A stretch of DNA of 64,000 nucleotides, taken from Aliarcobacter cryaerophilus ATCC 43158 (GTDB taxonomy: Bacteria; Campylobacterota; Campylobacteria; Campylobacterales; Arcobacteraceae). The DNA lies in NCBI RefSeq assembly GCF_003660105.1, contig NZ_CP032823.1, positions 434,001-498,000 of the forward strand, read 5' to 3'. The position numbers and the translations under genes are program-made. The notes below the pieces were generated by a model. That model did not search any database, was not told the DNA's origin, and was given only the letters and a program-made list of their open reading frames with translations. Of the stretch, positions 26,547 through 51,094 are shown piece after piece (the stretch's first letter is position 1; the number at the start of each line of letters is the position of its first letter).

Positions 26547-26834
26547 ATGCAATTTTTAATAATAGCTTATGACTACGATGATGCTTTTGATAGAAGAATG
26601 GAATCAAGAGATCAGCATTTAATTAATGTAAAAAAAATGATGGAAAGTGGGAATATTGTATCTGCTGGAGCTTTAATTGAAGATGATAAAATGGTTGGTT
26701 CATCTTTATTTGTCGATTTTGATACTGATGAAGAACTTGATTTATGGCTTGAAGATGAACCTTATGTTACAAATAAAGTTTGGAATATGGATGAAATACA
26801 GATAGTTCCTGTAAAACTACTTCCAAAAAACTAA
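26547..26834 (+). CDS. YciI-family protein
   Basis: A 95-residue ferredoxin-like fold protein of the YciI/YCII family: N-terminal FLIIAYDYDDAFDRR, a central basic segment with His (DQHLINVKKM) and the VSAGALIEDDKMVGSSLFVDF strand pair. AAAGGG SD before the ATG. The enzymatic role of the family is poorly defined. The last 14 codons and the terminator form the attachment site used by the downstream element; the gene remains intact after integration. Confidence 0.88.
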   Translation: MQFLIIAYDYDDAFDRRMESRDQHLINVKKMMESGNIVSAGALIEDDKMVGSSLFVDFDTDEELDLWLEDEPYVTNKVWNMDEIQIVPVKLLPKN

Positions 26835-26871
26835 AAACTAATTCAAACAAGCCCTTTTTATAGGGCTTGTT
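26792..26871 (+). repeat. attL: 80-bp direct repeat at the left end of the integrated element
   Basis: Matches 50585-50664 at 77 of 80 positions. It comprises the last codons of the YciI gene and its terminator hairpin (ACAAGCCCT/AGGGCTTGT, 26847-26870). The integrase gene starts about 100 nt further in. Confidence 0.88.
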
Positions 26872-26974
26872 TCTACTTCTTAATCTCACATTACATCATA
26901 TTAAATCATAATAAATTAGACTAATTCAAGTTTTTTTCAGGTAATATTTCAGGTATTATAAGAATTATTAAAAG

Positions 26975-28276
26975 ATGAGTACCTTAAAAATGCCAAAAAT
27001 ATCAAAACCTCTTAGTGATACAGAGATTAAAAATGCCAAATATACAACTGATGAAGAATTTGAAGTACTAAAAAAGAAATTAGAAGAATCAAATTCAAAT
27101 GAAAAAGCAATAAAGAAAAATAAGTTAGCAGATGGAAAAGGTTTGTATCTTATTATTAAAGCTAATAGCTCTAAAGTATGGAGATTTGATTTTAGATATG
27201 GAAATAAAAATCTTAGTATGTCTTTTGGTGTTTATCCAGAAGTAACTTTAAAAGAAGCTCGAGAAAAGAGAGAAGAAGCTAGACAGTTATTAGCTAATAA
27301 TATTAATCCAATTTCAGCTAAACGAATTAAAAAAGCTTCTGAATCTTTGACTTTACAAAATGTAGTTGATGAATGGATAGAGTTAAGAAAAAAAAGTTCA
27401 AGTGAAGCAACAATAATCCAAAATAGAAGAATGTTAAATAATATTACAAATTGGTTAGGTAATATTGCAATCAAAGATATTAAAAGAGTTGATACTATAA
27501 ATATTTTAGAAAAAATACAAAATAAAGGTGTTATAGAAACTGCTCATAGACTTTTATCGTTAATGAATAAAATATATATGTTTGCTGTTACTAAAGAGTA
27601 TATAGAGCATAATATAATTGCTGATATTGATAAAAAATCTGTATTAATTCCAAGTAATAAAAATATTCACCATCCAGCAATAACATCTCCAAATGAAATA
27701 CAAGAACTACTTAAAGACATTAATTCTATAGGAGAAAAATATAAATGTGATATTAGTGTTATGTTTATATTTAAAATAATTCCTTATGTTTTTGTAAGAA
27801 GCGAGAATATAAGGCTTATGAGATGGAATGAGGTAGATTTAGAAAAAGGAATTTGGGAAATACCTAAAGAAAAGATGAAAACTCATATTGATTTTGTTTG
27901 TCCTTTATCAAGACAAGCAGTAGATATTATAAAACAAATAGAACCATATTCTAGACATAGAAGTGAATTTGTATTTCCATCACCTTTTAAATCTGATAGA
28001 GGAATTTCTGGAGCTACATTATCAGATACATTAAATAAATTAGGTTATCAAAATAAGCATACCTTTCATGGATTTAGAAGTATGTTCTCAACAATAGCTT
28101 ATGAATATTATAAAGAACATGGACTTCATAGTGATATTATAGAATCTTGTTTGGCACATAAAGAAAAAAATAAAGTGAAAGCAGCTTATAATAGAGAATC
28201 AAAATATAAATATTTTGAAGAAAAAAAAGAGTTAATGCAATGGTGGGCTGATTGGTTAGATAAATTAGTAAAATAA
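26975..28276 (+). CDS. int: Tyrosine recombinase/integrase (P4-type, DUF4102 N-terminus)
   Basis: 433 residues. The N-terminal arm-binding domain has GKGLYLIIKANSSKVWRFDF and SFGVYPEVTLKEAREKREEA, a central SAM-like core-binding domain follows (about 125-215), and the catalytic domain shows Arg in FVRSENIRLMRW (about 275), HGFRS (HxxR, about 363), LAHKEKN and the presumed nucleophile Tyr in AAYNRESKYKYFEE. It should excise and integrate the element at the YciI site. Unusually long tandem GGTA motifs (26939-26958) just upstream may be its arm sites. No strong SD. Confidence 0.93.
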   Translation: MSTLKMPKISKPLSDTEIKNAKYTTDEEFEVLKKKLEESNSNEKAIKKNKLADGKGLYLIIKANSSKVWRFDFRYGNKNLSMSFGVYPEVTLKEAREKREEARQLLANNINPISAKRIKKASESLTLQNVVDEWIELRKKSSSEATIIQNRRMLNNITNWLGNIAIKDIKRVDTINILEKIQNKGVIETAHRLLSLMNKIYMFAVTKEYIEHNIIADIDKKSVLIPSNKNIHHPAITSPNEIQELLKDINSIGEKYKCDISVMFIFKIIPYVFVRSENIRLMRWNEVDLEKGIWEIPKEKMKTHIDFVCPLSRQAVDIIKQIEPYSRHRSEFVFPSPFKSDRGISGATLSDTLNKLGYQNKHTFHGFRSMFSTIAYEYYKEHGLHSDIIESCLAHKEKNKVKAAYNRESKYKYFEEKKELMQWWADWLDKLVK

Positions 28277-31802: not shown

Positions 31803-32585
31803 ATGAAAAATCAAAAAATAGTAACGGCAAACACAAAAGGTGGTTCATCTAAATCAACAAGTTCAATGCAATCTATTGCTACATATTTTCTTGCCCGAGG
31901 ACAAGAAGTAGAGTTGCTTGAGTTAGATAATCAAAACCAAGATGCAAAAATATTTTCAAAATCAAGAATAAAAACAAAACAAATAAATGTTGAATCTAAT
32001 GCAAAAGACCTAAATCAAACTGTAAGGGATTTGTTTTTGAGCGAAGATAAAAATAATAAAGTAATGGACATCGGGGGTAATGCCACTACCTCTAATTTTT
32101 TATCAGCACTAAAATCAACACATATGTATAATATGGTTGATTTGTTTGTAATCCCTATGTCTGGTGGTTCACAAGATTTGCTCAATGGTGTTAATACCCT
32201 TAAAATTATTTTAGATATGGATAAAAACGCAAAAGTATTATTTGCTTTATCTCGGGTGAGAAATCCAAAAAGAATTCAATTTCAATACGGTGATTTTTTG
32301 AATGACGATGAGTTAAAAAAATATCCATATATTATATTGCCAGAGAGCGATTGTATAGATTTGAGCCGTAAACTTAAAAAAACTGTGTACGAGCTTGCTC
32401 AAGATGAGCAAGAAAAAGAAAATATAAATAAAAAATTATTAGAATCCTTCAATAAAAATGATAAAAACTCAATATATTCATACAGTCTTATTTTGGAGAT
32501 TTTTGAAGATTCTCAAAATTATAAAAAAGAAATTATTGATGTAGCTCATCAAACACTGGACGAGGTACTCAATGGAAAAAAATGA
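31803..32585 (+). CDS. ParA/MinD-family ATPase
   Basis: 260 residues with a deviant Walker A (TKGGSSKST, residues 11-19, signature Lys12 and Lys17), a switch region around LLELDNQNQDA, and MDIGGNATTSNFLSAL as Walker A' / B region. Members partition plasmids or position secretion machinery. No ParB gene is obvious; the adjacent 127-residue membrane-anchored coiled-coil protein, overlapping by 14 nt, is a potential partner. Probably stabilises the excised element or localises the transfer complex. Confidence 0.82.
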   Translation: MKNQKIVTANTKGGSSKSTSSMQSIATYFLARGQEVELLELDNQNQDAKIFSKSRIKTKQINVESNAKDLNQTVRDLFLSEDKNNKVMDIGGNATTSNFLSALKSTHMYNMVDLFVIPMSGGSQDLLNGVNTLKIILDMDKNAKVLFALSRVRNPKRIQFQYGDFLNDDELKKYPYIILPESDCIDLSRKLKKTVYELAQDEQEKENINKKLLESFNKNDKNSIYSYSLILEIFEDSQNYKKEIIDVAHQTLDEVLNGKK

Positions 32586-32965: not shown

Positions 32966-33361
32966 ATGAAAAATAAAGTTGAATTCTTATCGAAAATTAT
33001 TATTGAAAATACAAGAATAGATGAAATAGAACTAAGCGAAGAATATATTCTAACTATTGAGATTAATTCATTAAATGGAAAAGAGACAGAAGATATTATT
33101 TTTTTAAATGATTTTTCTAGAAAAAAAGTAGTTATAGATGGTTTTTTTTTAGATATAAAATGTGTATTAGATACAACTAATATCGAAAAAATAGGTGTTG
33201 CAATTTCAAAAAAATTAAAAATAGATTTTGTAGAAGAGTGGGAGTTCATTTTTATCACAAAAAATAAACCTTGTCTTTTTGAACAGATTTCAATCAGAAC
33301 ATTTTCTTCCCAATTTAAATTAAATCCAAAGCAAGAAAATTATAAATGGAGTAAAAAATGA
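32966..33361 (+). CDS. Hypothetical soluble protein
   Basis: 131 residues, mixed alpha/beta by appearance (strands EYILTIEINS, KVVIDGFFLDIKCVL, EWEFIFITK), no signal peptide or membrane helix. SD AGAGG lies close to the ATG. Ends 4 nt into the next gene (ATGA overlap). No function assigned; co-expressed with the transfer genes. Confidence 0.6.
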   Translation: MKNKVEFLSKIIIENTRIDEIELSEEYILTIEINSLNGKETEDIIFLNDFSRKKVVIDGFFLDIKCVLDTTNIEKIGVAISKKLKIDFVEEWEFIFITKNKPCLFEQISIRTFSSQFKLNPKQENYKWSKK

Positions 33362-34062
33362 AAAATATATTATTAAATAAATTTCAAGCTCTTAAAAAAT
33401 GGAGCTTGAAAAATGAAGTTGAATTACAAAAGGTGTCAGAAAAAATTGAACTTCAAGAGCAAAAAATCAAAGATTTAAAATCTAATCAATTTCAAAAAAA
33501 AGATAAAGATATAAAAATCGAATTAGAAAAAGAAAAAGATAATACCGATTTTTTAAAAAAGGTTTATAAAGTAAAATCAGATTTAAGCCCAAATATTGGG
33601 TTTGATAATGATAATTTTTCAGAAAAAATAAAAGAAGCTGAAAAAATTGAAACTGATATAGGAGATGTAAGAAATGAAAGTAAAAAGATTGATTTAAAAA
33701 TCGATGATTTATCAACTAATAATTTGACTCAAACACAAAAAGACAAACTATTTGAAGAAATTGAAAAAGATATTTTAAATTTAAAATCAGCAGTCGAAAA
33801 ACTAAGAGATGAGAACCAAAATCTAAAAATAGAGCTTGAATTACTGATTGAAAAAAATAAAATTGAGAGACAAAAATCAGGACTTGAAAAAGAAAATTCT
33901 AATTTAAAAGATAAGCTTGAATCCCTAAAAAATAAGACTCAAAATTCAAAAAATGAATTTGAATCAGATTCAAAAAATAAAATCACTTATTCAAATTCAA
34001 AAGATACTAAAAAAATCCAAGAGTATCAAACACTCGAAAATAAAAACGAAAAGGAGCGATAA
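33358..34062 (+). CDS. Coiled-coil protein
   Basis: 234 residues dominated by Lys/Glu/Asn heptads (about 20-60 and 95-205), no membrane segment. Probably a long rod or scaffold. Overlaps the preceding gene (ATGA) and abuts the next (TAAATG), so it is inside one polycistronic unit. No homologue recognised. Confidence 0.6.
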   Translation: MKNILLNKFQALKKWSLKNEVELQKVSEKIELQEQKIKDLKSNQFQKKDKDIKIELEKEKDNTDFLKKVYKVKSDLSPNIGFDNDNFSEKIKEAEKIETDIGDVRNESKKIDLKIDDLSTNNLTQTQKDKLFEEIEKDILNLKSAVEKLRDENQNLKIELELLIEKNKIERQKSGLEKENSNLKDKLESLKNKTQNSKNEFESDSKNKITYSNSKDTKKIQEYQTLENKNEKER

Positions 34063-34908
34063 ATGGAACTTATGACGGATAGAGTAATTTTTTATTACAT
34101 ATTTTTTTCATCAATAATTATTTTACTTACCATGCTTTGGGGCTTAACAAAGTATAAAAAACTTACTAATTTTCAAAGAAGTAACAGAAATAATTTTGTT
34201 ATAAAACAAGGAATTATATTAGTTGTTTTAATTGCCATTTCTATGGGGTTAAATCACATCTTAACTTTTACTTTTGAACATTTTCAAAACAATATAAGTC
34301 AAACAGAGAGTATATTTAAGTTTCAAGTTTTTGCCACTATAGGCTTAGTTTTTTTAGTTGTAAATTATTTTTATAATCGTAAATTAGAGTTGGTAGATGA
34401 GCGAGTGGTAAAACTTAATCAAGAGACTCCATTATTCAACTTTTCTTCTGTTCAAAAAATTGTAAAAAAGATAAAAGACTACTCTCATTTTTATAGTGGG
34501 ATAACATATGATTATAGTCCAAAAGATTTTACTATCCAAAATGTAACAATTAACATCTCAAAGGCTGATATGGAAGAGTTTAATGAGTTACAAGATAAAC
34601 AAGTTCAAATAAATCAATTTTACTCAAAATTAATAGAGTATATTAATTTAAAATCTGAAACTTTTGATTATAAAAAAATCTCTGATGAAGATTTACAACA
34701 AATAAAAACAGTAAAAACTCTAAAGTTTCTAATTATTACAAAATTTGAAATCTTTAAAGAAAACCAATACTTTCCAAGTATTTCACAACTTTTTCAGATA
34801 GCCAATCCAGAAGAAACAGAGTTTTTAAATTTCTTGCGAGATTACTCTCATGACAAGTACTCTAGTCTAAGCCTAAAACATGCAATTTTTTATATAAAAG
34901 AGGTATAA
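34063..34908 (+). CDS. Membrane protein of the transfer operon
   Basis: 281 residues with three N-terminal helices (about 8-28, 48-68, 84-101) and a 175-residue cytoplasmic tail, helical and acidic. Starts directly after the coiled-coil gene stop and precedes the coupling protein by 1 nt. Could be the coupling protein's membrane partner; no family recognised. Confidence 0.6.
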   Translation: MELMTDRVIFYYIFFSSIIILLTMLWGLTKYKKLTNFQRSNRNNFVIKQGIILVVLIAISMGLNHILTFTFEHFQNNISQTESIFKFQVFATIGLVFLVVNYFYNRKLELVDERVVKLNQETPLFNFSSVQKIVKKIKDYSHFYSGITYDYSPKDFTIQNVTINISKADMEEFNELQDKQVQINQFYSKLIEYINLKSETFDYKKISDEDLQQIKTVKTLKFLIITKFEIFKENQYFPSISQLFQIANPEETEFLNFLRDYSHDKYSSLSLKHAIFYIKEV

Positions 34909-34909
34909 A

Positions 34910-35167
34910 ATGGAAAACAATATAAACGATAAAATAAGGGTTAATACCTATACAAAACTTGATGATAATGAGGAGAAATTAATTGATGATGTTTTTTGGT
35001 CTTCGTATCTTTGGATAATTCTATTTTTTGTTTTTTCAATAAGTTTAAAAATACATTTTTTTGCTTTTGCACTTTTTATCTATTTTTTCTCTTTTAAATT
35101 TCAAAAAAATTTACTAAGAAATAAAACTAAAGATGCCAAAATAAAGGAGTTATCCCCCCCCTTTTAA
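34910..35167 (+). CDS. Coupling protein, 5' portion (membrane anchor), out of frame with the ATPase part
   Basis: 85 residues: a short acidic N-terminus, then two adjacent membrane helices (SYLWIILFFVFSISLKIHFF and AFALFIYFFSF) followed by basic residues, the standard N-terminal anchor of VirD4/DotL coupling proteins. The frame ends at TAA 35165-35167 immediately after a run of eight C. One extra C (or two fewer) would fuse it to the frame encoding the ATPase, giving a 695-residue protein of normal coupling-protein length. SD AGAGG before the ATG. Confidence 0.7.
   Translation: MENNINDKIRVNTYTKLDDNEEKLIDDVFWSSYLWIILFFVFSISLKIHFFAFALFIYFFSFKFQKNLLRNKTKDAKIKELSPPF
35154..35161 (+). repeat. C8 homopolymer at the frame break of the coupling-protein gene
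   Basis: Eight consecutive C in a gene otherwise almost free of such tracts. Poly-C/G tracts of this length are the classic phase-variation sites of Campylobacterota. As sequenced the gene is OFF; C9 or C6 would read through, and -1 slippage could also produce some full-length protein. Confidence 0.75.
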
Positions 35168-35394
35168 ATAATGATAACTTAAAGAGTAAATATAGTGTTC
35201 ACTTAGGAACGATTGTAAAAAGGCATAAAAAGGATTTAGATATTTTAAGTATTTACAATCAAGCTAGAAAATTTTTAGGTCTTGATTATGAGACAGAAAC
35301 AACAATTCCATCTCAAAAAAGAACTTCAAGTAAAGAGAATGCAATAGCTCCAGTATTAATTGATGATTCAATTTTAAAAGAGCATTGTGCTTTA

Positions 35395-36996
35395 ATGGCT
35401 ACAAGTGGAGGTGGAAAAACTGAATTACTTTTAAATGCTTACATTGAATCAAGTATATCAAGAGGAGCAGGAGTATTTGCAATTTTTGGAAAAGCTGACA
35501 ACTCAATGCTTCAAAGAGTTCAAAGCCTTTGTGCAACTTACAATAGGTTATCAGACTTATTAATTTTTGACTTTAATCCAGATAAAAGAGGTAAATTTAA
35601 CTCAAATACAATTAATTTGTTTGAGCTAGGAGCTTCAAAAGACATTATTACTATGCTAACTAGTATTGCTGATTTAGAGGGAAATGATGACGGGGGGTGG
35701 AATGGAAAAGCAAAGCTTTATTTATCTTCACTTTTAAAAGTAATATTAACTTTAAGAGATGCAAATTTCTTTTTAGACATTTCAAAAATTGATAAAGTTT
35801 TTAATTCATGTAATAAAGTTGATGAGTATCAAAAACATTTAGTGAAACTTGATTATTTCTCATTTAATAGACTTCTTAGCGAAACAGATTTATTAATCAA
35901 ATTTTTACTAATTTTTGATGATATTTATGAGACAAATAAAAATGAGATTAATGCTAAGTTGTATTCAAACTTTATTAAGATTATTGAAGATGAAAGTAAA
36001 AATAATAGCTCATTATCTCATCTTGATAATAGTGTAAAAAATCAATTTCATAATGAGTTAAAGAATGTTGTAATTATGCTTTCAAATGTTCCAGATTGGC
36101 AAAAGCTAAAAGAATCATATCTAAATGGAGTAACAACAGAGGGTGGAACTACTATTAAGGGCATTGAAGCAGTAAGCTTGAGATTTCCACAAAGAAGTGG
36201 AACTTTCTATGACCTTTCAGTTGCTCAAGGATTGATGGATAGTTTAGTTAATTTCTTTGACTCTTTTGCACCAATTCTAAAAAATGTAAATAGTGATTTA
36301 AACATTTTGGATGCAATTGATTCAAACAAAATAGTTATTGTAAATCTTCCTGGACAAAATAAAATCTATAGTCCAATTTTAGCGGAACTTCTTGTATCAA
36401 CTTTGAATCTACTAGCCGAAAGAAGAGGTAAGGACTTTATCCCTGATACTACAACACTTGTAATTTTGGATGAGATTAATTCATGGTTAAAAACAAAAAA
36501 CAATCAAAGCTATCAAATTGGAGATTTACTCTCAGTTATTAGAGGTTTGTATATGGGAGCAGTACTATCTTTTCAAAGTGATTTAAAAGAGACAATGGGA
36601 AGTATTGATAACTCGCAAATAATAGCTAATGTAAAAACAATCATATCTTTAAAATTAGAAGATGTAGAACTTATAAAACTTCTCAACTCTAAGGTGCAAA
36701 AAGTAGAAAAAATTACACTTGAAGAGAGTATGAAAAGAGATAAAACTCTAAAAAAATCTCAAAATAATGAAGATTCAAAACTCTCAAAAAGCGAAGAAGA
36801 CTTTTTTAAACCAGAAATGTTAAGCAACATTAAAAATGGGGAAGGGTACATAATTAGAAACTCTATAGCTTCACCATTTATGGCTAAGTATATGGTGCAA
36901 AAAAACTTATACAAAACTGCCAAAGATGATGTTGTCCTAAACAGATATGTAGATGTTGATGTTATTAGAAAAAAACAAATGGAACTAGGAGCTTAA
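35395..36996 (+). CDS. Coupling protein (DotL/TrbC-like type IV ATPase), 3' portion
   Basis: 533 residues from the first in-frame ATG; the frame is open from 35131, and that upstream part (RHKKDLDILSIYNQARKFLG) clearly belongs to the protein, so the ATG next to Walker A is unlikely to be the natural start. Walker A SGGGKTE, then a FGKADNS motif as in DotL/TrbC rather than the DPKGEL-type of VirD4/TraG, and Walker B TTLVILDEINSW with a following SFQSDL sensor region. Pumps DNA or substrate into a transfer channel. See the C8 tract for the frame break. Confidence 0.82.
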   Translation: MATSGGGKTELLLNAYIESSISRGAGVFAIFGKADNSMLQRVQSLCATYNRLSDLLIFDFNPDKRGKFNSNTINLFELGASKDIITMLTSIADLEGNDDGGWNGKAKLYLSSLLKVILTLRDANFFLDISKIDKVFNSCNKVDEYQKHLVKLDYFSFNRLLSETDLLIKFLLIFDDIYETNKNEINAKLYSNFIKIIEDESKNNSSLSHLDNSVKNQFHNELKNVVIMLSNVPDWQKLKESYLNGVTTEGGTTIKGIEAVSLRFPQRSGTFYDLSVAQGLMDSLVNFFDSFAPILKNVNSDLNILDAIDSNKIVIVNLPGQNKIYSPILAELLVSTLNLLAERRGKDFIPDTTTLVILDEINSWLKTKNNQSYQIGDLLSVIRGLYMGAVLSFQSDLKETMGSIDNSQIIANVKTIISLKLEDVELIKLLNSKVQKVEKITLEESMKRDKTLKKSQNNEDSKLSKSEEDFFKPEMLSNIKNGEGYIIRNSIASPFMAKYMVQKNLYKTAKDDVVLNRYVDVDVIRKKQMELGA

Positions 36997-37506
36997 ATGC
37001 AAAAAGAAACACTTAATTTAACTGCTTGGGAGCAAATCAAAGAAAAAGTTAAAAGATGGTTTGGAAAAGGTGAGTATGGAACTTCAAGAGATTTTCTTAA
37101 TTTACATAAAATGAGGGAAAACTCTACAGATTTAGAGTTTTTACTTATAACAAAAGAGTTTAAAGAGAATGGTTTAAAAAAAGATGTTTATGGAACTCAA
37201 TACGATTTAAAACAGGAATTTAAAGATTTTGAAGAGAGAAAAGCTAAAGGTGAATTTGTAGGTGAGAATGAACAAAAAGCTTTAGATTTTTTAGAGAAAT
37301 ATAAATTAAAACTTTCAGCTCTTGACTCAAAAGTTGATGAGTTGGCAAATTTAAAAAAAGAGATTGCAACCATTAAAAGTGTAATTAATGGCAATGATTT
37401 AGATGTAAAAAAAGAAGAAGAGCTACAAAGCTATAAAACTTATCAAGAAGCAGAAGATGAAAAAGAACGAGCTAGACGACAAAGATGGCGAGAGAAAGGA
37501 TTGTAA
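36997..37506 (+). CDS. Hypothetical helical protein
   Basis: 169 residues, Lys/Glu-rich, no membrane segment; KEKVKRWFGKGEYGTSRDFL near the N-terminus and a coiled-coil region (DSKVDELANLKKEIATIKS) then a basic C-terminus. The ATG directly follows the coupling-protein stop (TAAATG), suggesting coupled expression. Function unknown; an adaptor for the coupling protein is possible. Confidence 0.6.
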   Translation: MQKETLNLTAWEQIKEKVKRWFGKGEYGTSRDFLNLHKMRENSTDLEFLLITKEFKENGLKKDVYGTQYDLKQEFKDFEERKAKGEFVGENEQKALDFLEKYKLKLSALDSKVDELANLKKEIATIKSVINGNDLDVKKEEELQSYKTYQEAEDEKERARRQRWREKGL

Positions 37507-37507
37507 A

Positions 37508-38002
37508 ATGGTAACAAATGCTAGAAAAATAGATTTTATTCAAAAAATAAAAGATATGCAAGAAAGAACAAGAGCTTCAAAAACGGAGCTTTTGAAAAAA
37601 TTAGATTTAAAAGATGAAGAGTATAAAACTTTTTCATCTAAATTAAGAGAGATTCAAAACTCTAATCACGATATTTTAGGGCTTATGGCTTTAGTTGATA
37701 TTTATTATTTAACAAAAAAAGAGTTAGCAAAAAAAGAGTTAAATCGACTAGAAAATCAAAATGATACTACTACTCAAAAAGATAAATTAATCAATGATTT
37801 TTTTGAGCAAGTAGGGGAGAGAATTAATATTATTGAAAAAGCTGAAAGTCTTGATTTAAAAGAGTTCTTAAATAGTAATACTTTGTATGAAATTTTTGAT
37901 GATAAGAAATTTGAGAAATATATTAATCCTCAAAGTTCTGAAAATATAGCAGAAAATATAAAAGGAAATGAGCATGAGTACTCAAGAGAAAACGAAAGGT
38001 AA
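37508..38002 (+). CDS. Hypothetical soluble protein
   Basis: 164 residues starting at the ATG at 37508, 1 nt after the previous stop; an in-frame ATG at 37457 would overlap that gene by 50 nt. N-terminal KTELLKKLDLKDEEYKTFSSKLREIQ looks helical and possibly HTH-like; no membrane segment. The 3' end overlaps the next gene. Confidence 0.55.
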   Translation: MVTNARKIDFIQKIKDMQERTRASKTELLKKLDLKDEEYKTFSSKLREIQNSNHDILGLMALVDIYYLTKKELAKKELNRLENQNDTTTQKDKLINDFFEQVGERINIIEKAESLDLKEFLNSNTLYEIFDDKKFEKYINPQSSENIAENIKGNEHEYSRENER

Positions 38003-38327
38003 TTTAGAAGTTTTACACGAAGCTTTAGGCGATGAGATAATTAAACAAGTTGTCTCAAAGCTTGATATTTACGAATCAAAAATCAAAGATATATTTGAGA
38101 TTATGGAAGAGCTTCAAGAAATTATTCTTTTACAAGCAAGTGAACAAAAAGCAAAATTAAACTCTCAAAGTGAACTTGAAATTAATGCTCGTATCTCAAA
38201 ATCAATGGAAGAGTTTGAATTACAGTTTGAAAAAATGTTGAATGATAAAAAAACAAAAAACAATAATAAATTTGTCTATTTGATGATAGTTATTGCATTT
38301 TTACTTTTTGCATTGTTCTTTAAATAA
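37974..38327 (+). CDS. Small coiled-coil, tail-anchored protein
   Basis: 117 residues. Central coiled coil (KLDIYESKIKDIFEIMEELQ) and a C-terminal membrane helix (FVYLMIVIAFLLFALFF). Start at 37974 because AAGGA is 7 nt upstream; the ATG at 37968 is too close to it. Overlaps the preceding gene by 29 nt. Architecture repeats that of the 127-residue protein at 32572. Confidence 0.6.
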   Translation: MSTQEKTKGNLEVLHEALGDEIIKQVVSKLDIYESKIKDIFEIMEELQEIILLQASEQKAKLNSQSELEINARISKSMEEFELQFEKMLNDKKTKNNNKFVYLMIVIAFLLFALFFK

Positions 38328-38344
38328 CAAATAAAGGATGTGAA

Positions 38345-38647
38345 ATGGATGATTTATGTTTATTGACTCCACCAGAAATAGCTAAAAAGATTGGAGCAAA
38401 AAAAACTACGGATTTAACGAGTGGTGTAAAGAATCTTTCAGCTTCAAGTCTGAATAACTTAAAAATATCAAATCCAAGTAAGTATGAAATAGTTATGTTA
38501 GGTTTAATCGTAAAAAAACTTCATATTAATTTTAATGATTTGATATTTTTTTCAGAAGCTTTGAAATTTAAAAATATTAAAAATGAAAATTTTGATATAA
38601 ATGATTTATTATTTATAAATCTTCTTAGCAATTATCAAAAGAGCTAA
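38345..38647 (+). CDS. Hypothetical small protein
   Basis: 100 residues, no membrane segment. The N-terminus (LTPPEIAKKIGAKKTTDLTS) resembles a helix-turn-helix, but the match is weak. AAAGGATGTGAA SD before the ATG; 1 nt before the next gene. Possibly a small regulator or chaperone of the following large membrane protein. Confidence 0.5.
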   Translation: MDDLCLLTPPEIAKKIGAKKTTDLTSGVKNLSASSLNNLKISNPSKYEIVMLGLIVKKLHINFNDLIFFSEALKFKNIKNENFDINDLLFINLLSNYQKS

Positions 38648-38648
38648 T

Positions 38649-41531
38649 ATGAAGAAGTATATATTACATATATTTTTATTTACTATTTTATTTTTAACAA
38701 ATAGTATTGGTGCAGAGATAATAAGGTATCAAACAGAAAATAGAAGCTCTTTGCTAGATGATAAAATGGCAGCTACTATAATTAGAGGTGCAACATCAAA
38801 TTCTTTAAACTTTAATACTAGTACTTCAATATGTAAAGATTTATATAAATTCGTTTATGATGAAAATGAAAATATAAAATCAAAAACAAGAGTTGAAGCT
38901 CAAAAATATCTAATAGATTTTAACTTTAAAGAAGGAACTTTTACTTGCTCATACATAAATGAACAAGAATTTGGAGATGCTAGTAAATCAATAACTCTTT
39001 CAATTCCAAACTGGACTTTGCTGTTAGGGTACATTGATGGCACAAAATCAGGTTCAAGTCTTGTTAATATTCCATTAGAGATAGATAATATATATAATCT
39101 GTTTGATGCTGAATATAAGCCTTCAAATCTTAGTGTAATGCCTGATTATGGTCATTATGAGACAACTTGGGAAGCAATTAAAAAACTAGGTAAGAAAATA
39201 TTTACAATTGGAAATAGTACAGACGATACAAATAGTTTGAGTACAAACTCCTATAATGTTGAAAAAAGAGCAAAAGATTTAGGGCTACAATACCTTAATT
39301 ACAACAAAGATAAAGAGAATTTTACGGTATCGCAATTTGTAACTGGTCTAGTAACTTTAAATGGTAATGTTGTATCAGGAGTAAGTCAAACGGGAGATAT
39401 AATCATAAATCCTGAAATTGAAAAAAAGATGACAATTCTTGATTCTGTTGAATATTCTAAAGGAATATGGGAAACATTTAAAGATAAAGTGTCAGAAGTT
39501 TATACTAATATGACTGGTGGTCAAGTTGATAATGTAAACTATACTAGTGTATTTAGTTTTGAACAATATTTTGATAAAAAAATATTTGGACTTTACTATG
39601 AGTTTATGTCTTTTGGTTGGCAGGCTGTTTTTGATTATGCAGGAATTTTAATTCTTGCTATGGTTTTTTTATATACAGGTGGAATTATTGGATATAAATA
39701 TTTAATGTTTAAATTAAATAGTAGCAATGAAAATAAAGAGTGGGATTTCCCTTTCTCAAATAGATTGACTGCTATTGTAATTATGTTAGTAGTATTTTTT
39801 ATTCATTTTCCAAGTGGGAATTCCGAATCAATAGTTTCTTCTAATAATAATCAAAGTGATAAAGTATTTGAGATAACTACCACAAATAATAATCAAGCTA
39901 CACAATTAGATTCTCAAACAACTATGTTTAAGATTGGAATTGGATTTTTAGGTAATATTGGAGCAACCATAGCTGATATTACAGCTACAAATGCAACAGT
40001 TTTTTATATGAGATATTTATTTAATGCAACACATACAAGAAGCTATGAAGATACATTAAATATTCTTAATCAAACTAGAAGAGAAATTGTTGAACAAGCT
40101 GTACTTCAATCATTCTTTAAGGACAATTGTATAGCGTCTCATGAAGTAAGTTATAAAAAATATAATGGTTTTCAAATGGCAGATTCTCATATTGATTTAC
40201 TTTGGAATCTAGATAATGGAAGTAGTAAAATTTTTGATGGCAAAGGCACAATTTCTCCTTTAATGTGTAAGAATCTTGAAACATCTTTAATGATAGGCAG
40301 AGAATATTTGAAGAAAACTAAGGCTGTTAGCGAGAAAACAATTACCAATTTATCTAAAAACTCAAATTTTAATGTTACAACTAATAATAGTTCATATACT
40401 ACAATGAGTCAATTATATGTAGATACTCAGTTATTGGGTGTAAAAAATGTTGGTTGGTTTATGGCTTCAACTCTTCCAGTAAGTCATGTTTTTATGCTAA
40501 ATTCAAATATTATTAACAATGCTTATGATGGATTATCAAGAACAACAAATGGTGAAGCAGTAACAACAATGTTAGTGAATAAAGCTAATGATTTATATAC
40601 AAAAGAAGATGAAAATTTATCTAAGCAAACACTTGATACTGAAATTTTAGGCTCTGTTACAAGCAACTGGATTAAAAATACTTTTTCTACATTAACATCA
40701 TATCAAATATATAATATGTTGCCATATTTTGGTGAAATTAGACAATTTTTTGAAAAAGCAGTTGAAGGAGCAGGTGAATCTTTGTTTGAAGTTGCAGGTA
40801 TATTTATGCCACAAGGTAAACTATTATCTTTCGCTAAATCATCATTAGATAAATTCACAAAAGAAGCAAACGAACAAAAAACTAAAAAAAGCTTGAAAGA
40901 TAATAGTAAAGTTTCTCAAAGTATAGATTTTTTAAGTTCTGGATTTAAGTCATTTATGATTTATGTTACGGCATTTTCATTAGCAGTTATTTTCTATAAA
41001 CTTATGATACAAGGTATTTTTGCAGCTATTATAACACTATTAGCCATATTAAAAATAGGGCTATATTTTTGGGATTGTTTCATGCACTTTTTTGTATCAC
41101 CATTTATGATTCTTTGGCAAATGACAATCAAGGAAAAAACAGATAGGGTTAATTCTTATATGGTGGATGGTTTTATACTTTACGTGATTAAGCCTACACT
41201 AATTGTGAGTTCTTTTTTTATGTTTATTATTAGCTTTGAAATTATTACTGGAGTTTACTCATTAATATTTGATATTTGTTTTTCAACACTAAATTTATCA
41301 AATTCATTATATGAAGATTCAAGTATTTCTTTATCTTTTGTGACACAAAGTGTTATAACTGGATTTTCGGATATTTTTATCTATTTTATAGGAATGATAT
41401 TAGCTTATTTTATTATTCTAAAAGGTGATGATATGATATTAGCTAAATTCAAATATAAAGATGAAACAGAGAGTGGATTATTACATCAATTAGGTGAAAG
41501 AGTTCAAGCATTAGGTGGAGCAAGAATTTAA
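38649..41531 (+). CDS. Large polytopic membrane protein, DotA/TraY-like topology
   Basis: 960 residues. Signal peptide (1-22, LHIFLFTILFLTNSIGAE), a ~300-residue periplasmic domain, three membrane segments (about 333-355, 372-390 and 430-450), a ~300-residue second extracytoplasmic domain with Cys residues, then about five C-terminal helices (775 to 945) including MHFFVSPFMILWQM. This layout matches DotA/TraY proteins of type IVB systems better than VirB6/TrbL. Co-occurrence with a DotL/TrbC-like ATPase strengthens that reading. Sequence identity to the family was not tested. Confidence 0.6.
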   Translation: MKKYILHIFLFTILFLTNSIGAEIIRYQTENRSSLLDDKMAATIIRGATSNSLNFNTSTSICKDLYKFVYDENENIKSKTRVEAQKYLIDFNFKEGTFTCSYINEQEFGDASKSITLSIPNWTLLLGYIDGTKSGSSLVNIPLEIDNIYNLFDAEYKPSNLSVMPDYGHYETTWEAIKKLGKKIFTIGNSTDDTNSLSTNSYNVEKRAKDLGLQYLNYNKDKENFTVSQFVTGLVTLNGNVVSGVSQTGDIIINPEIEKKMTILDSVEYSKGIWETFKDKVSEVYTNMTGGQVDNVNYTSVFSFEQYFDKKIFGLYYEFMSFGWQAVFDYAGILILAMVFLYTGGIIGYKYLMFKLNSSNENKEWDFPFSNRLTAIVIMLVVFFIHFPSGNSESIVSSNNNQSDKVFEITTTNNNQATQLDSQTTMFKIGIGFLGNIGATIADITATNATVFYMRYLFNATHTRSYEDTLNILNQTRREIVEQAVLQSFFKDNCIASHEVSYKKYNGFQMADSHIDLLWNLDNGSSKIFDGKGTISPLMCKNLETSLMIGREYLKKTKAVSEKTITNLSKNSNFNVTTNNSSYTTMSQLYVDTQLLGVKNVGWFMASTLPVSHVFMLNSNIINNAYDGLSRTTNGEAVTTMLVNKANDLYTKEDENLSKQTLDTEILGSVTSNWIKNTFSTLTSYQIYNMLPYFGEIRQFFEKAVEGAGESLFEVAGIFMPQGKLLSFAKSSLDKFTKEANEQKTKKSLKDNSKVSQSIDFLSSGFKSFMIYVTAFSLAVIFYKLMIQGIFAAIITLLAILKIGLYFWDCFMHFFVSPFMILWQMTIKEKTDRVNSYMVDGFILYVIKPTLIVSSFFMFIISFEIITGVYSLIFDICFSTLNLSNSLYEDSSISLSFVTQSVITGFSDIFIYFIGMILAYFIILKGDDMILAKFKYKDETESGLLHQLGERVQALGGARI

Positions 41532-44089: not shown

Positions 44090-45730
44090 TTATCTTTCTT
44101 TTTCAAATTCGTCTTTAATTTTGTTAATAAACTCTTTACTAGATTCATTAAAGTTAACTTTCTTAATATCAGTCCATCCTTTTTGAATCATCAATTTAGC
44201 AATTAATTTTGCATCTTCATCTGTTATATTTTCAGTTGATAATATCTCTTCAATTCTATCTTCAATCTCAATATTTTTATCTTTACTTTTAAATTTAACA
44301 TTATCATTTTCTTGAGAAATATAATATCTTGATAAATCAATATCACTTTCAAGATTGTAAATATCTTTGAATATCTTATTTTGGTATGAGTTAAAGAACT
44401 TTAGATTTTCAATATTTGATTTTTTACTATAATCTAAATCATTTACAATGTTAGCTTTTGCATTGTTTTGTAAGTGAAATAAGATAGTACTATCATCAAG
44501 TCCTATTTGATTAAAATATACGGTATAGCTTTTATCTTCATAGCTAAATTTTAATCCAGTCTTTTTTCTTTTACCTTGAATATTTTGATTTCTAAATCCT
44601 AAATCTTTGTATCCAAAGTTTGAAAGTATATCTTTTAGTTCAACTTCATTTTTTGCATATTTTAAAGCTTCTAATATATCATTTTTAACAGCATTGTTAA
44701 AAGATAGATATTTATTATCACTTTTTACATTAGATGATGATTTACTTCTACCTTTCATATTTTCCATTACTAAATCATTTGATGAAATCAAAGGAAAGAT
44801 ATAATCTCTTTGCTTTAGCTCTTCAATTATTGTAGATTGAAAGCCATTTGTATATTTAATATAATCTCTTGCTAGAAAGTTATCTCTAGTCATAAGCTCT
44901 TTTAATTTTACTTTATCTTTATTTGCTATTGCAATTAAAGTCTCATTTGTAATCTCATCAATTGGAATAGGGTAGATATCTTTTATATTATTACTTCTAA
45001 ACTCAAAGTTCAAATTTAATCTATCTAATCTTTTTTTTATATTGTTCATAGCTTTAATATAAAACTGTAAATTACCAGTTGCAGTTGCATAATCATATAA
45101 AAGCTCTAAGTTCTTTGTTAAATCATCACCTTTTGAATTAACATAGTTAATTACTTGCTTATCTGTCATCTTTTGAGTGAACCAAGAGAATCTACTACAT
45201 TTTTCCATTAAACCTTGAAACTTATTTACACTTCTATCTTTCTCTTCATCAAAGTGAAATACTAAATTGTATTTACTTGCTATATTAGATAAATGCTTTT
45301 TTAAATGATAATAGTTTAATCCAGTATGTTTTGTAGAATTAAATAAAAGATGAAAGTGTGGCTCAATATTATCAAAATCTATATCACTGTTAAAAGCTCT
45401 ATTGTGATAAGCAGCTAAAGTATCACTACTTAATTCAAAACTCTTATTTGAAAAGTACTCTTTTTTATTTCCATTTTTATCTATGTATTCTCTAGTTTTT
45501 ACTCTAAAAGTATATTTTGTATTGATTATCTCATCAAGCATTAATTTCATTACATTGTTAATTTTATCTTTTGAATTAAATCCATTTGCAATTAATTGGC
45601 TTGTATCAATAGAGCATTTAAAATGAGCTTTGTGTTTTAAAGGATTATATTCATCAATACTATTATAAATAGTTTCTGCATGGTCTAAAATATGTAAATC
45701 AACTCTATATGATGATTCATTCTTGCTCAT
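44090..45730 (-). CDS. HUH endonuclease: relaxase or replication initiator
   Basis: 546 residues. The motif EPHFHLLF (His125, His127) is the HUH metal site; candidate nucleophile tyrosines Tyr140/Tyr141 lie downstream in GLNYYHLKKH. A HUH-then-Tyr order is seen in rolling-circle Rep proteins, whereas relaxases usually carry the Tyr upstream (none obvious but Tyr22/Tyr28), so both roles remain open. The C-terminal 300 residues are helical and charged. It reads out of the AT-rich repeat region to its right, the likely nick/origin site. Confidence 0.75.
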   Translation of the reverse strand: MSKNESSYRVDLHILDHAETIYNSIDEYNPLKHKAHFKCSIDTSQLIANGFNSKDKINNVMKLMLDEIINTKYTFRVKTREYIDKNGNKKEYFSNKSFELSSDTLAAYHNRAFNSDIDFDNIEPHFHLLFNSTKHTGLNYYHLKKHLSNIASKYNLVFHFDEEKDRSVNKFQGLMEKCSRFSWFTQKMTDKQVINYVNSKGDDLTKNLELLYDYATATGNLQFYIKAMNNIKKRLDRLNLNFEFRSNNIKDIYPIPIDEITNETLIAIANKDKVKLKELMTRDNFLARDYIKYTNGFQSTIIEELKQRDYIFPLISSNDLVMENMKGRSKSSSNVKSDNKYLSFNNAVKNDILEALKYAKNEVELKDILSNFGYKDLGFRNQNIQGKRKKTGLKFSYEDKSYTVYFNQIGLDDSTILFHLQNNAKANIVNDLDYSKKSNIENLKFFNSYQNKIFKDIYNLESDIDLSRYYISQENDNVKFKSKDKNIEIEDRIEEILSTENITDEDAKLIAKLMIQKGWTDIKKVNFNESSKEFINKIKDEFEKER

Positions 45731-48650: not shown

Positions 48651-49580
48651 ATGAGTTTTTATATTAGTGATGATGAATTAGTCAATTATTTTTCTAAAAT
48701 TTCATTTGTATTTAATAATATTAAGTTAATAAGAGAGCATTTAGATATTATTTTTGTTTTTGGAAGTGCTGATAATTCTCTAAATTCAGGAAGAAGTTTA
48801 TTTATGAATTATATTAACGAGAAAGATACCCCATTCAAATTTATTACTATAGAAAAACTATATAAAGATTTGAGAACATTTGCATTTAAGACAAAAGGGA
48901 TTAGTTCAGAAAAAATCAAATTGGCTCATCTTGAGTACATAGCAATAAAAAATGCTTTTTCTATTTTAATATTTCCAGAAAGCCCAGGTTCTTTTGCTGA
49001 ATTAGGTTACTTTTCAGCTAAAGAAGATACGAGAAAAAAAATTATTGTTTCAAATAAATTAAAATATAATATTAAGTCAACATATGTTAACTCAATAATT
49101 GAAATTATCCATCAAGATAAAGAAATAAAGGAAATATTATATACAGATATTGAAAGTACATTATATTTTAATCAATATATAGAAAGGTTATTAGATAATT
49201 ATACTGATTATAATGAAGAGATTTTTAAAGCTAAAGATAAGGTTAGTAATGAAATGTATCAATTATCTGTTTTATATGAAATCATAAGATTATTTCCAGG
49301 TTTAATTTATACAGAGCTTTTATTTACAGTAAGATATTTTTTTGATAAATTATCAATAAAGATTGATGATGTAGAAACATATTTAAAATCTATGATATCT
49401 TTATTAGTTATATCAAATTTAATTGAGAGAGAAGAATTTAGATACAATCAAAAAACAAACAATTTATTTAAAGTAGTTGATGATAATTTTTCTTGCTTCA
49501 AATTTGAGCATTCAGAAGATGATTATTTAAAAATACTGAAGCATACAAGTGAATTTTCTAAAAGGAAAAATCTAAAATGA
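48651..49580 (+). CDS. Retron effector: nucleoside-deoxyribosyltransferase-like with C-terminal winged helix
   Basis: 309 residues. The N-terminal Rossmann-like domain shows FVFGSADNS (36-43) and ILIFPESPGSFAELGYFSA (105-123), with Glu110/Glu117 as likely catalytic acids, as in nucleoside 2-deoxyribosyltransferase/N-glycosidase effectors of Eco1 (Ec86)-type retrons. The C-terminal ~100 residues (LFPGLIYTELLFTVRYFFDK) look like a winged helix that would contact msDNA. Lies between the ncRNA and RT, the type II-A order, and overlaps the RT by 4 nt. In the type system the effector depletes a nucleotide cofactor when the retron is triggered; here inferred. Confidence 0.85.
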   Translation: MSFYISDDELVNYFSKISFVFNNIKLIREHLDIIFVFGSADNSLNSGRSLFMNYINEKDTPFKFITIEKLYKDLRTFAFKTKGISSEKIKLAHLEYIAIKNAFSILIFPESPGSFAELGYFSAKEDTRKKIIVSNKLKYNIKSTYVNSIIEIIHQDKEIKEILYTDIESTLYFNQYIERLLDNYTDYNEEIFKAKDKVSNEMYQLSVLYEIIRLFPGLIYTELLFTVRYFFDKLSIKIDDVETYLKSMISLLVISNLIEREEFRYNQKTNNLFKVVDDNFSCFKFEHSEDDYLKILKHTSEFSKRKNLK

Positions 49581-50500
49581 TATTTTTAGAATCTATATGT
49601 AAAAGATTTGAAAAAAATTTAAATCAGATTGTTGATTTTTCGACTACAGCAAATAAAAGATATAAGACATATAAAATAAAAAAAAGAACTTCAGGTACAA
49701 GAACAATTGAGCAACCATCACAAGAATTAAAATTATATCAAAAATTTATAAGTGAAAAGATATTTCTCAATTTACCTGTACATGAAGCAGTTTTTTCATA
49801 TAAAAAAAATATTTCAATTAAGAATTTAGCAGATAAACATAAAAATAATAGATATTTATTAAGAATAGATTTTAAAGACTTTTTTCCATCAATAAAGGGA
49901 GATAATATAAGATTATTTTTGAAAAATTCTAATTTAAAATTAAGTGATTTAGAAATAACTTTGATAAATTTGTTTGTTTGCAAAAATAATAAACTAACAA
50001 TAGGAGCATCTTCCTCTCCATCGATAACAAATGCAATATTATTTAGTTTTGATGATGATGTTTATAAATTTTGCTTAGAACAAAATATTATATATTCTAG
50101 ATATGCTGATGATTTATATTTCTCAACAAATGAGGAAGGAATACTTTCATCTATTTTGGAGTATGTAAAGAATTATATATTTTCATATAAAATAGATTTA
50201 CATATTAATTATGATAAAAATATTTATACTTCTAAAAAACATAGAAGAATAATTACAGGTTTAACAATAACTACTGATGGTAATATTTCTGTAGGTAGAA
50301 AACAGAAACAATATATAAAAAGTTTAATTAATTCATATAAATATAAATGTTTAGAAGATGAACAAATTAATTATCTTAAAGGGTATTTAAATTTTTTGGT
50401 TTATATAGAACCTACTTATATTGATAATTTAAAAAACAAATATGGAGAAGTTATAATTAATGAATTGTTTATTAATAAGTTTAACAATAAATGTAATTGA
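49577..50500 (+). CDS. ret: Retron reverse transcriptase
   Basis: 307 residues, the usual retron RT size. Finger/palm motifs: RTIEQPSQELKLYQK (RT1), NLADKH (83-88, equivalent of the retron NAxxH motif), LLRIDFKDFFPSI (motif A, Asp98), TIGASSSPSITN (motif B, 141-152), SRYADDLYFS (catalytic YADD, 176-179) and RIITGLTI (226-228, equivalent of the retron VTG motif that recognises the msr). It reverse-transcribes the msd to branched msDNA primed from the branching G. Overlaps the effector gene (ATGA), so both are coupled. Confidence 0.95.
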   Translation: MIFLESICKRFEKNLNQIVDFSTTANKRYKTYKIKKRTSGTRTIEQPSQELKLYQKFISEKIFLNLPVHEAVFSYKKNISIKNLADKHKNNRYLLRIDFKDFFPSIKGDNIRLFLKNSNLKLSDLEITLINLFVCKNNKLTIGASSSPSITNAILFSFDDDVYKFCLEQNIIYSRYADDLYFSTNEEGILSSILEYVKNYIFSYKIDLHINYDKNIYTSKKHRRIITGLTITTDGNISVGRKQKQYIKSLINSYKYKCLEDEQINYLKGYLNFLVYIEPTYIDNLKNKYGEVIINELFINKFNNKCN

Positions 50501-50584: not shown

Positions 50585-50664
50585 TGAGATACAGATAGTT
50601 CCTGTAAAGCTACTTCCAAAAAACTAAAAACTAATTCAAATAAGCCCTTTTTATAGGGCTTGTT
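50585..50664 (+). repeat. attR: 80-bp direct repeat at the right end of the element
   Basis: Copy of 26792-26871 with three substitutions; includes the duplicated YciI-gene 3' end and terminator. A decayed second integrase begins 119 nt beyond it. Confidence 0.88.
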
Positions 50665-50782
50665 ACTATAATATGTACTTAAATAAAAACAGACTAAAAC
50701 ATATAAATTTAAATAAAATCAAATAATTTAACGGGATAATTTACAGTAACTTTTAAACTATAAAAAGGAATTACCGCTAAAA

Positions 50783-51094
50783 ATGGCAAGATTAGTAAAA
50801 CCACTAACAGATAAAGATATTAGTACAGTACAACCTAGAGAAAAGGACTATAAATTAAATGATGGAAAAGGTTTATTTGTTATTGTAAAAATTGATGGTA
50901 CAAAGTATTTCAGATTTGATTTTTCATATGGTGGAAAAAGAAAATCTACTAGCTTTTGAGTTTATCCAAAAACTACACTAAAAAAAGCCAGAGAAAAAAG
51001 AGAAGATGCTAGAGAGTTATTATCAAAAAATATTAATCCTATATCAGCAAAAAGTATAAAAAGAGCTTCAGATGGAATGACCCCAAGTTGGTAG
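50783..51094 (+). pseudogene. Truncated, interrupted integrase (second element)
   Basis: Begins MARLVKPLTDKDIS and continues with DGKGLFVIVKIDGTKYFRFD, homologous to the N-terminal domain of the integrase at 26975; a TGA at 50957-50959 interrupts it, then VYPKTTLKKAREKREDAREL continues in the same frame until about 51079, where homology stops and TAG ends the frame. No catalytic domain remains. It has the same orientation and spacing from its att copy as the intact integrase, so it is the remains of an element integrated in tandem at the same site. Confidence 0.9.

Follow-up and report, generated by a model that had tools for sequence, protein, structure and literature searches.

A frame-breaking C8 tract, possibly a phase switch, in the coupling-protein gene of an integrated element of Aliarcobacter cryaerophilus

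Why is a coupling-protein gene broken near its 5′ end by a run of eight cytosines when the rest of its coding sequence is open? We addressed this question in a 64,000-nucleotide stretch of the chromosome of Aliarcobacter cryaerophilus ATCC 43158 (hereafter the window), in which a C8 homopolymer at positions 35154-35161 of the forward strand shifts the reading frame of the gene. The 5′ part of the gene (34910-35167, forward strand) is an 85-residue frame that specifies two hydrophobic helices and ends in KELSPPF at a TAA codon (35165-35167) three bases past the tract. A second frame, displaced by -1, is open from 35131 to 36996 (621 codons without a stop), and the 3′ part of the gene that lies in it (35164-36996, forward strand, 610 open codons) specifies the linker and the ATPase, with a Walker A motif (GGGKT) and a Walker B-like motif (LVILDE). 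Joined across the tract, the gene has about 695 codons; the tract falls at codon 82, less than an eighth of the way along, and in the protein it corresponds to the linker that connects the anchor helices to the ATPase. A preliminary description of this sequence had proposed that the C8 run splits a coupling-protein gene in this way and that the next frame, open from 35131, carries the linker and ATPase, and both proposals are borne out. In the downstream frame, no ATG, GTG or TTG occurs until 35395, immediately ahead of the Walker A motif, so that a product of ordinary re-initiation would lack both the linker and the beginning of the ATPase fold.

As judged from its sequence, the split gene resembles those for type IV coupling proteins (T4CPs) of the DotL/TrbC type. 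A profile of IcmO/DotL (6sz9) matched over the P-loop region with E=6e-12, the NCBIfam TrbC (59 bits, cut-off 800) and SXT TraD (39 bits) models scored below their curated cut-offs, and TraG-D_C reached 21 bits against a cut-off of 22 bits. Two hydrophobic N-terminal segments and the GGGKT motif can also be read in the orthologues. Like DotL/IcmO, TrbC (IncI-type) and TraD of SXT, the protein has an N-terminal anchor and a Walker A motif; unlike them, the window gene is frame-shifted, and neither the element that carries it nor the genome has a recognisable VirB4/TraU-type ATPase. The structures that AlphaFold predicted for the coupling protein and for the HxH protein described below were too poor for use (mean pLDDT 33 and 41, respectively).

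The gene belongs to an integrated element that measures about 23.8 kb and is bounded by an 84-bp direct repeat, the two copies of which are 95% identical. The attL-like copy (26792-26875, forward strand) consists of the 3′ end of a YciI-like gene with its terminator, and the attR-like copy is at 50585-50668 (forward strand). Between them, also on the forward strand, are a tyrosine integrase (26975-28276; Pfam Phage_integrase) that is 83% identical to the integrase of a related element in genome G029, a ParA-like ATPase recognised by profile match (31803-32585), and a tightly spaced row of genes from 33358 to 41531 in which the coupling-protein gene begins at 34910. Directly upstream of that gene are two conserved element genes (33358-34908), encoding a 234-aa protein and a 281-aa membrane protein and present in all four relatives; downstream are four small conserved genes (36997-38647; 169, 181, 119 and 100 aa), also found in the relatives, and a gene (38649-41531) whose product, a membrane protein of 960 aa, is conserved among elements of this family. 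This membrane protein has one distant match, encoded on a Caminibacter plasmid as part of a row of genes that also specifies an ATP-binding protein and a lytic transglycosylase. A 546-aa protein with an EPHFH (HxH) motif, encoded on the reverse strand (44090-45730), is conserved in the relatives and has no Pfam match; it is a putative relaxase or Rep-type nuclease. At its right end (48651-50500) the element carries a type II-A retron, with an NDT effector and a reverse transcriptase, as cargo. Just outside the right repeat (50783-51075) lies the remnant of a second integrase gene; its DNA matches to the integrase that the element itself encodes are at 79% and 70%, and it points to an earlier tandem integration. 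Genome G006 holds two copies of the element (L054/L055, G006:C1:1911001-1942500), in one of which the HxH gene is split by an insert of about 2.5 kb.

With integrative mobilizable or conjugative elements that use a tyrosine integrase, the window element shares the integrase, the 84-bp repeats, ParA and the coupling protein, as well as a possible HUH protein and the retron II-A cargo. It differs from them in that its transfer genes are incomplete by known profiles and its relaxase is a candidate only. Measured against a self-transmissible ICE, the integrase and att repeats are present and a VirB4-type ATPase or type IV secretion system (T4SS) is not recognised. The TIGR00929 and PF12846 profiles detected no VirB4-type ATPase in the window genome (G000), G003 or G006, and G029 gave only a marginal TIGR00929 match (36 residues, E 9e-4). 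A complete T4SS cluster was likewise not recognised in the element or the genome. A helper may allow the element to be mobilized, or its machine may have diverged beyond the reach of the profiles used.

To place the interruption in its lineage, we compared the gene with four close orthologues from three species of the same genus (one each in G003 and G029 and two in G006), found among 104 genomes of the family. All four are uninterrupted and specify proteins of 691-693 aa, in agreement with the earlier expectation that the joined product of about 695 codons would be of normal length. The 85-aa frame of the window is 84-93% identical to their N-termini. A partial protein in G016, 45% identical, is likewise open across the tract point. 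No further relatives were found in GTDB r220 contigs, IMG/VR or plasmids, and distant T4CPs on plasmids align over only about a third of the protein. The tract itself is missing from all four orthologues: at the position of CCCCCCCCTTTT in the window, three of them read CCCTCTT and the G029 gene reads TTCTCAT. The C8 state is thus derived and unique to the window's lineage. It also differs from a one-base slip, since the relatives share no C-tract and, measured against the ancestral reading, the window gene has a net five extra bases. In G003, two linker codons have been lost next to the tract site, which indicates that in-frame length changes are tolerated in the linker.

Several lines of evidence indicate that the downstream frame has remained under selection. 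The dN/dS of this frame was 0.106-0.118 between the window and its relatives and 0.102-0.138 among the relatives themselves, and polarised changes numbered 61 synonymous and 32 nonsynonymous on the window branch; for the G003 branch the corresponding counts were 59 and 38. In a mixture calculation, nonsynonymous changes this few had P=0.03 if the gene had been unconstrained for about 5% of the branch and P=0.004 for 10%; the calculation is rough, as it takes site counts as the neutral ratio and uses distant outgroups. The remaining main genes of the element align full-length to those of the relatives. The preliminary description had allowed that the downstream frame might prove clearly decayed; this possibility is ruled out by 621 codons free of extra stops and by a dN/dS of about 0.11, as in the relatives. 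Because purifying selection is the same as in the relatives, the break must be very recent, reversible, bypassed or not real.

The tract is also exceptional in length. Runs of C in the window comprise 67 C3, four C4, no C5-C7 and the one C8, and in shuffled windows CCCCCCC is expected 0.3 times, with at least two matches in 5 of 100 shuffles. Across the 2.1-Mb genome, which consists of the chromosome and a 101-kb contig, a pattern search recorded eight G/C runs of at least six bases: five of six, none of seven, one of eight (the C8 tract) and two of eleven, this census omitting runs in five pairs spaced 2066 bases that are presumably rRNA operons. C8 is therefore far outside the run-length distribution of the genome, and the separate class formed by the long runs indicates growth by slippage rather than chance. 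One of the 11-base runs, a G11 (G000:C1:1928056-1928066; L003:1501), spans the start region (MGGGDKM...) of a gene for an OmpA-like protein and is a possible slip switch. The other is an intergenic C11 on the 101-kb contig (G000:C2:90928-90938; L007:1501); a frame that resembles a TonB receptor (L007:2411-2818, reverse strand) and stops after 135 aa lies about 900 bp away. Over a stretch of 577 bp this contig shows 98-99% identity to plasmids of Aliarcobacter and Arcobacter.

With a cut-off that 11 of 14 controls passed, MutL was detected in none of the 31 genomes of the genus. Together with frame-switching G8-G10 tracts in sister species, this makes slippage plausible in the window. The preliminary description called C/G tracts the usual phase-variation device in Campylobacterota; their use in the genus agrees with this, but C8 is absent from 13 of the 31 genomes, and A. 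butzleri RM4018, the first genome of the genus, was reported to lack such tracts (PMC2147049). The rest of the genus is mostly poor in them. In H. canadensis, "strong candidates" were defined by a run of C7 or longer together with an actual frameshift, in a genome with 16 poly-G genes, and the window tract, in the first fifth of its gene, falls within this definition (PMC2823697).

Another genome of the genus, G030, has about 33 G/C tracts, almost all G9 and many near the 5′ end of TonB-dependent-receptor-like genes. We sampled 21 of these loci (L031, L059-L078), 19 of which had an evaluable upstream start; 17 of the 19 were out of frame at G9 or G10 and two were in frame. A Plug domain was confirmed in three sampled G030 loci and in one G028 locus (L030), the receptor identity of most G030 tract genes being a reading of their sequences. 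The whole looks like a large phase-variable TonB-receptor repertoire, probably undescribed, as we found no paper on it in the literature. Other C8-C10 runs in the genus (L017, L019, L022, L042) lie inside a methyltransferase-like gene, two acyltransferase-like genes and a NeuD-like acetyltransferase gene, which look like typical surface contingency genes. The window tract and the receptor tracts of G030 and G028 are alike in being frame-breaking G/C runs near the 5′ end; however, the latter recur in many paralogues, whereas the window tract is unique.

Taken together, these results lead us to favour, tentatively and at slightly less than an even chance, a tract of the phase-variable type in the coupling-protein gene, with the sequenced clone in the OFF state. 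According to this model, the element's DotL/TrbC-type gene would have gained a lineage-specific poly-C tract in the tolerant linker between anchor and ATPase, most simply by a synonymous change from CTC to CTT followed by expansion of a C3. At a length of eight the frame is broken, and the sequenced clone would make only the 85-residue anchor; with the remainder of the gene intact and selected, the break would be very recent on an evolutionary scale. An eight-base G/C run in a cell without MutL would be expected to change length by slipped-strand mispairing, such that in-frame lengths would arise at a presumably appreciable frequency and ON and OFF cells would coexist. The coupling protein would then be under a de facto translational phase switch, possibly a selected one, with a presumed effect on DNA transfer. 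Compared with the contingency loci of Campylobacter and Helicobacter, the window gene has in common a G/C homopolymer in the first fifth, two open frames, a broken frame in the assembly and no MutL. It differs in that the tract is single, is only eight bases long, is absent from all orthologues and lies in a transfer gene of a mobile element rather than in a surface gene. Phase variation is known chiefly for surface structures and DNA methylation. A length of eight is also low for a tract that switches fast. The switch proposed in the preliminary description thus finds agreement in the split gene, the unusual run, the undecayed downstream frame and the lack of MutL; the run exceeds chance, lies in the 5′ fifth of the gene and joins two open frames, but a tract kept at differing lengths in orthologues, as expected of a phase-variable gene, was found in none of the four.

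The same broken frame and the same absence of the tract from the orthologues would also follow if expansion of the tract had recently broken the gene for good, leaving an element on its way to immobility. That no convincing conjugation ATPase was found in the window genome or the other carriers hints that the gene is perhaps dispensable, and the interrupted HxH gene in one G006 copy shows that such elements do decay. However, the 610 downstream codons contain no second lesion, selection is unchanged and the other genes of the element are intact, and we regard a recent one-way loss as rather unlikely, though a serious competitor.

A fault in the consensus or assembly at the homopolymer, with a true or majority length that keeps the frame, would account for a single affected element gene and for selection that appears normal, and single-base errors at C8 or C9 are a common residual fault of long-read assemblies. 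Yet 127 A/T runs of at least seven bases in the open reading frames of the window cause no visible frame breaks, two 11-base G/C runs were recorded elsewhere in the genome, and the roughly five bases gained relative to the relatives exceed any one-base error. We therefore consider this explanation unlikely, and a little more so than loss of the gene.

Some full-length protein might instead be made from the C8 allele by programmed -1 ribosomal frameshifting or by polymerase slippage. C CCC CCC has the form X XXX XXX of a slippery heptamer and is correctly placed in the zero frame, the shift required is in the -1 direction, and a Shine-Dalgarno-like AAGGAG (35144-35149, forward strand) lies five bases before the heptamer. 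However, AAGGAG also stands as the codons AAG GAG in G003 and G006 and is judged to be ancestral coding sequence rather than a stimulator, downstream structure was not notable (z -0.9 and -0.65), and CCC is not a favoured -1 codon. The orthologues neither have a shift site nor need one, and with the site not conserved and no notable structure we rejected frameshifting as the main mechanism; a contribution from either process is improbable. That the two frames, though both open and co-oriented, are separate genes for an anchor and an ATPase, as in a split coupling protein, is so unlikely that we rejected it: the second frame lacks a start until 35395, inside the ATPase core, and the gene is fused in all four orthologues.

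If the tract is a phase-variable one, it could serve selected bet-hedging, in which the element phase-varies its own coupling protein and only a fraction of carriers is transfer-competent. We consider this extension doubtful. The proposal that transfer is toggled ON and OFF presumes a transfer machine, and no convincing VirB4/AAA_10-type ATPase was found in any of the carrier genomes, that of the window included, which makes any benefit of toggling uncertain; to say that conjugation is switched takes two steps of inference and goes beyond the evidence. Judged by titles and abstracts, the literature offers no clear precedent for a T4SS coupling protein controlled by a contingency switch. If the phase switch is real, DNA transfer from a mobile element would be stochastically confined to a subpopulation of cells. 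Should the gene simply have been broken not long ago, it would still be a sign that slippage acts in this genus, the first genome of which was said to contain no G:C tracts.
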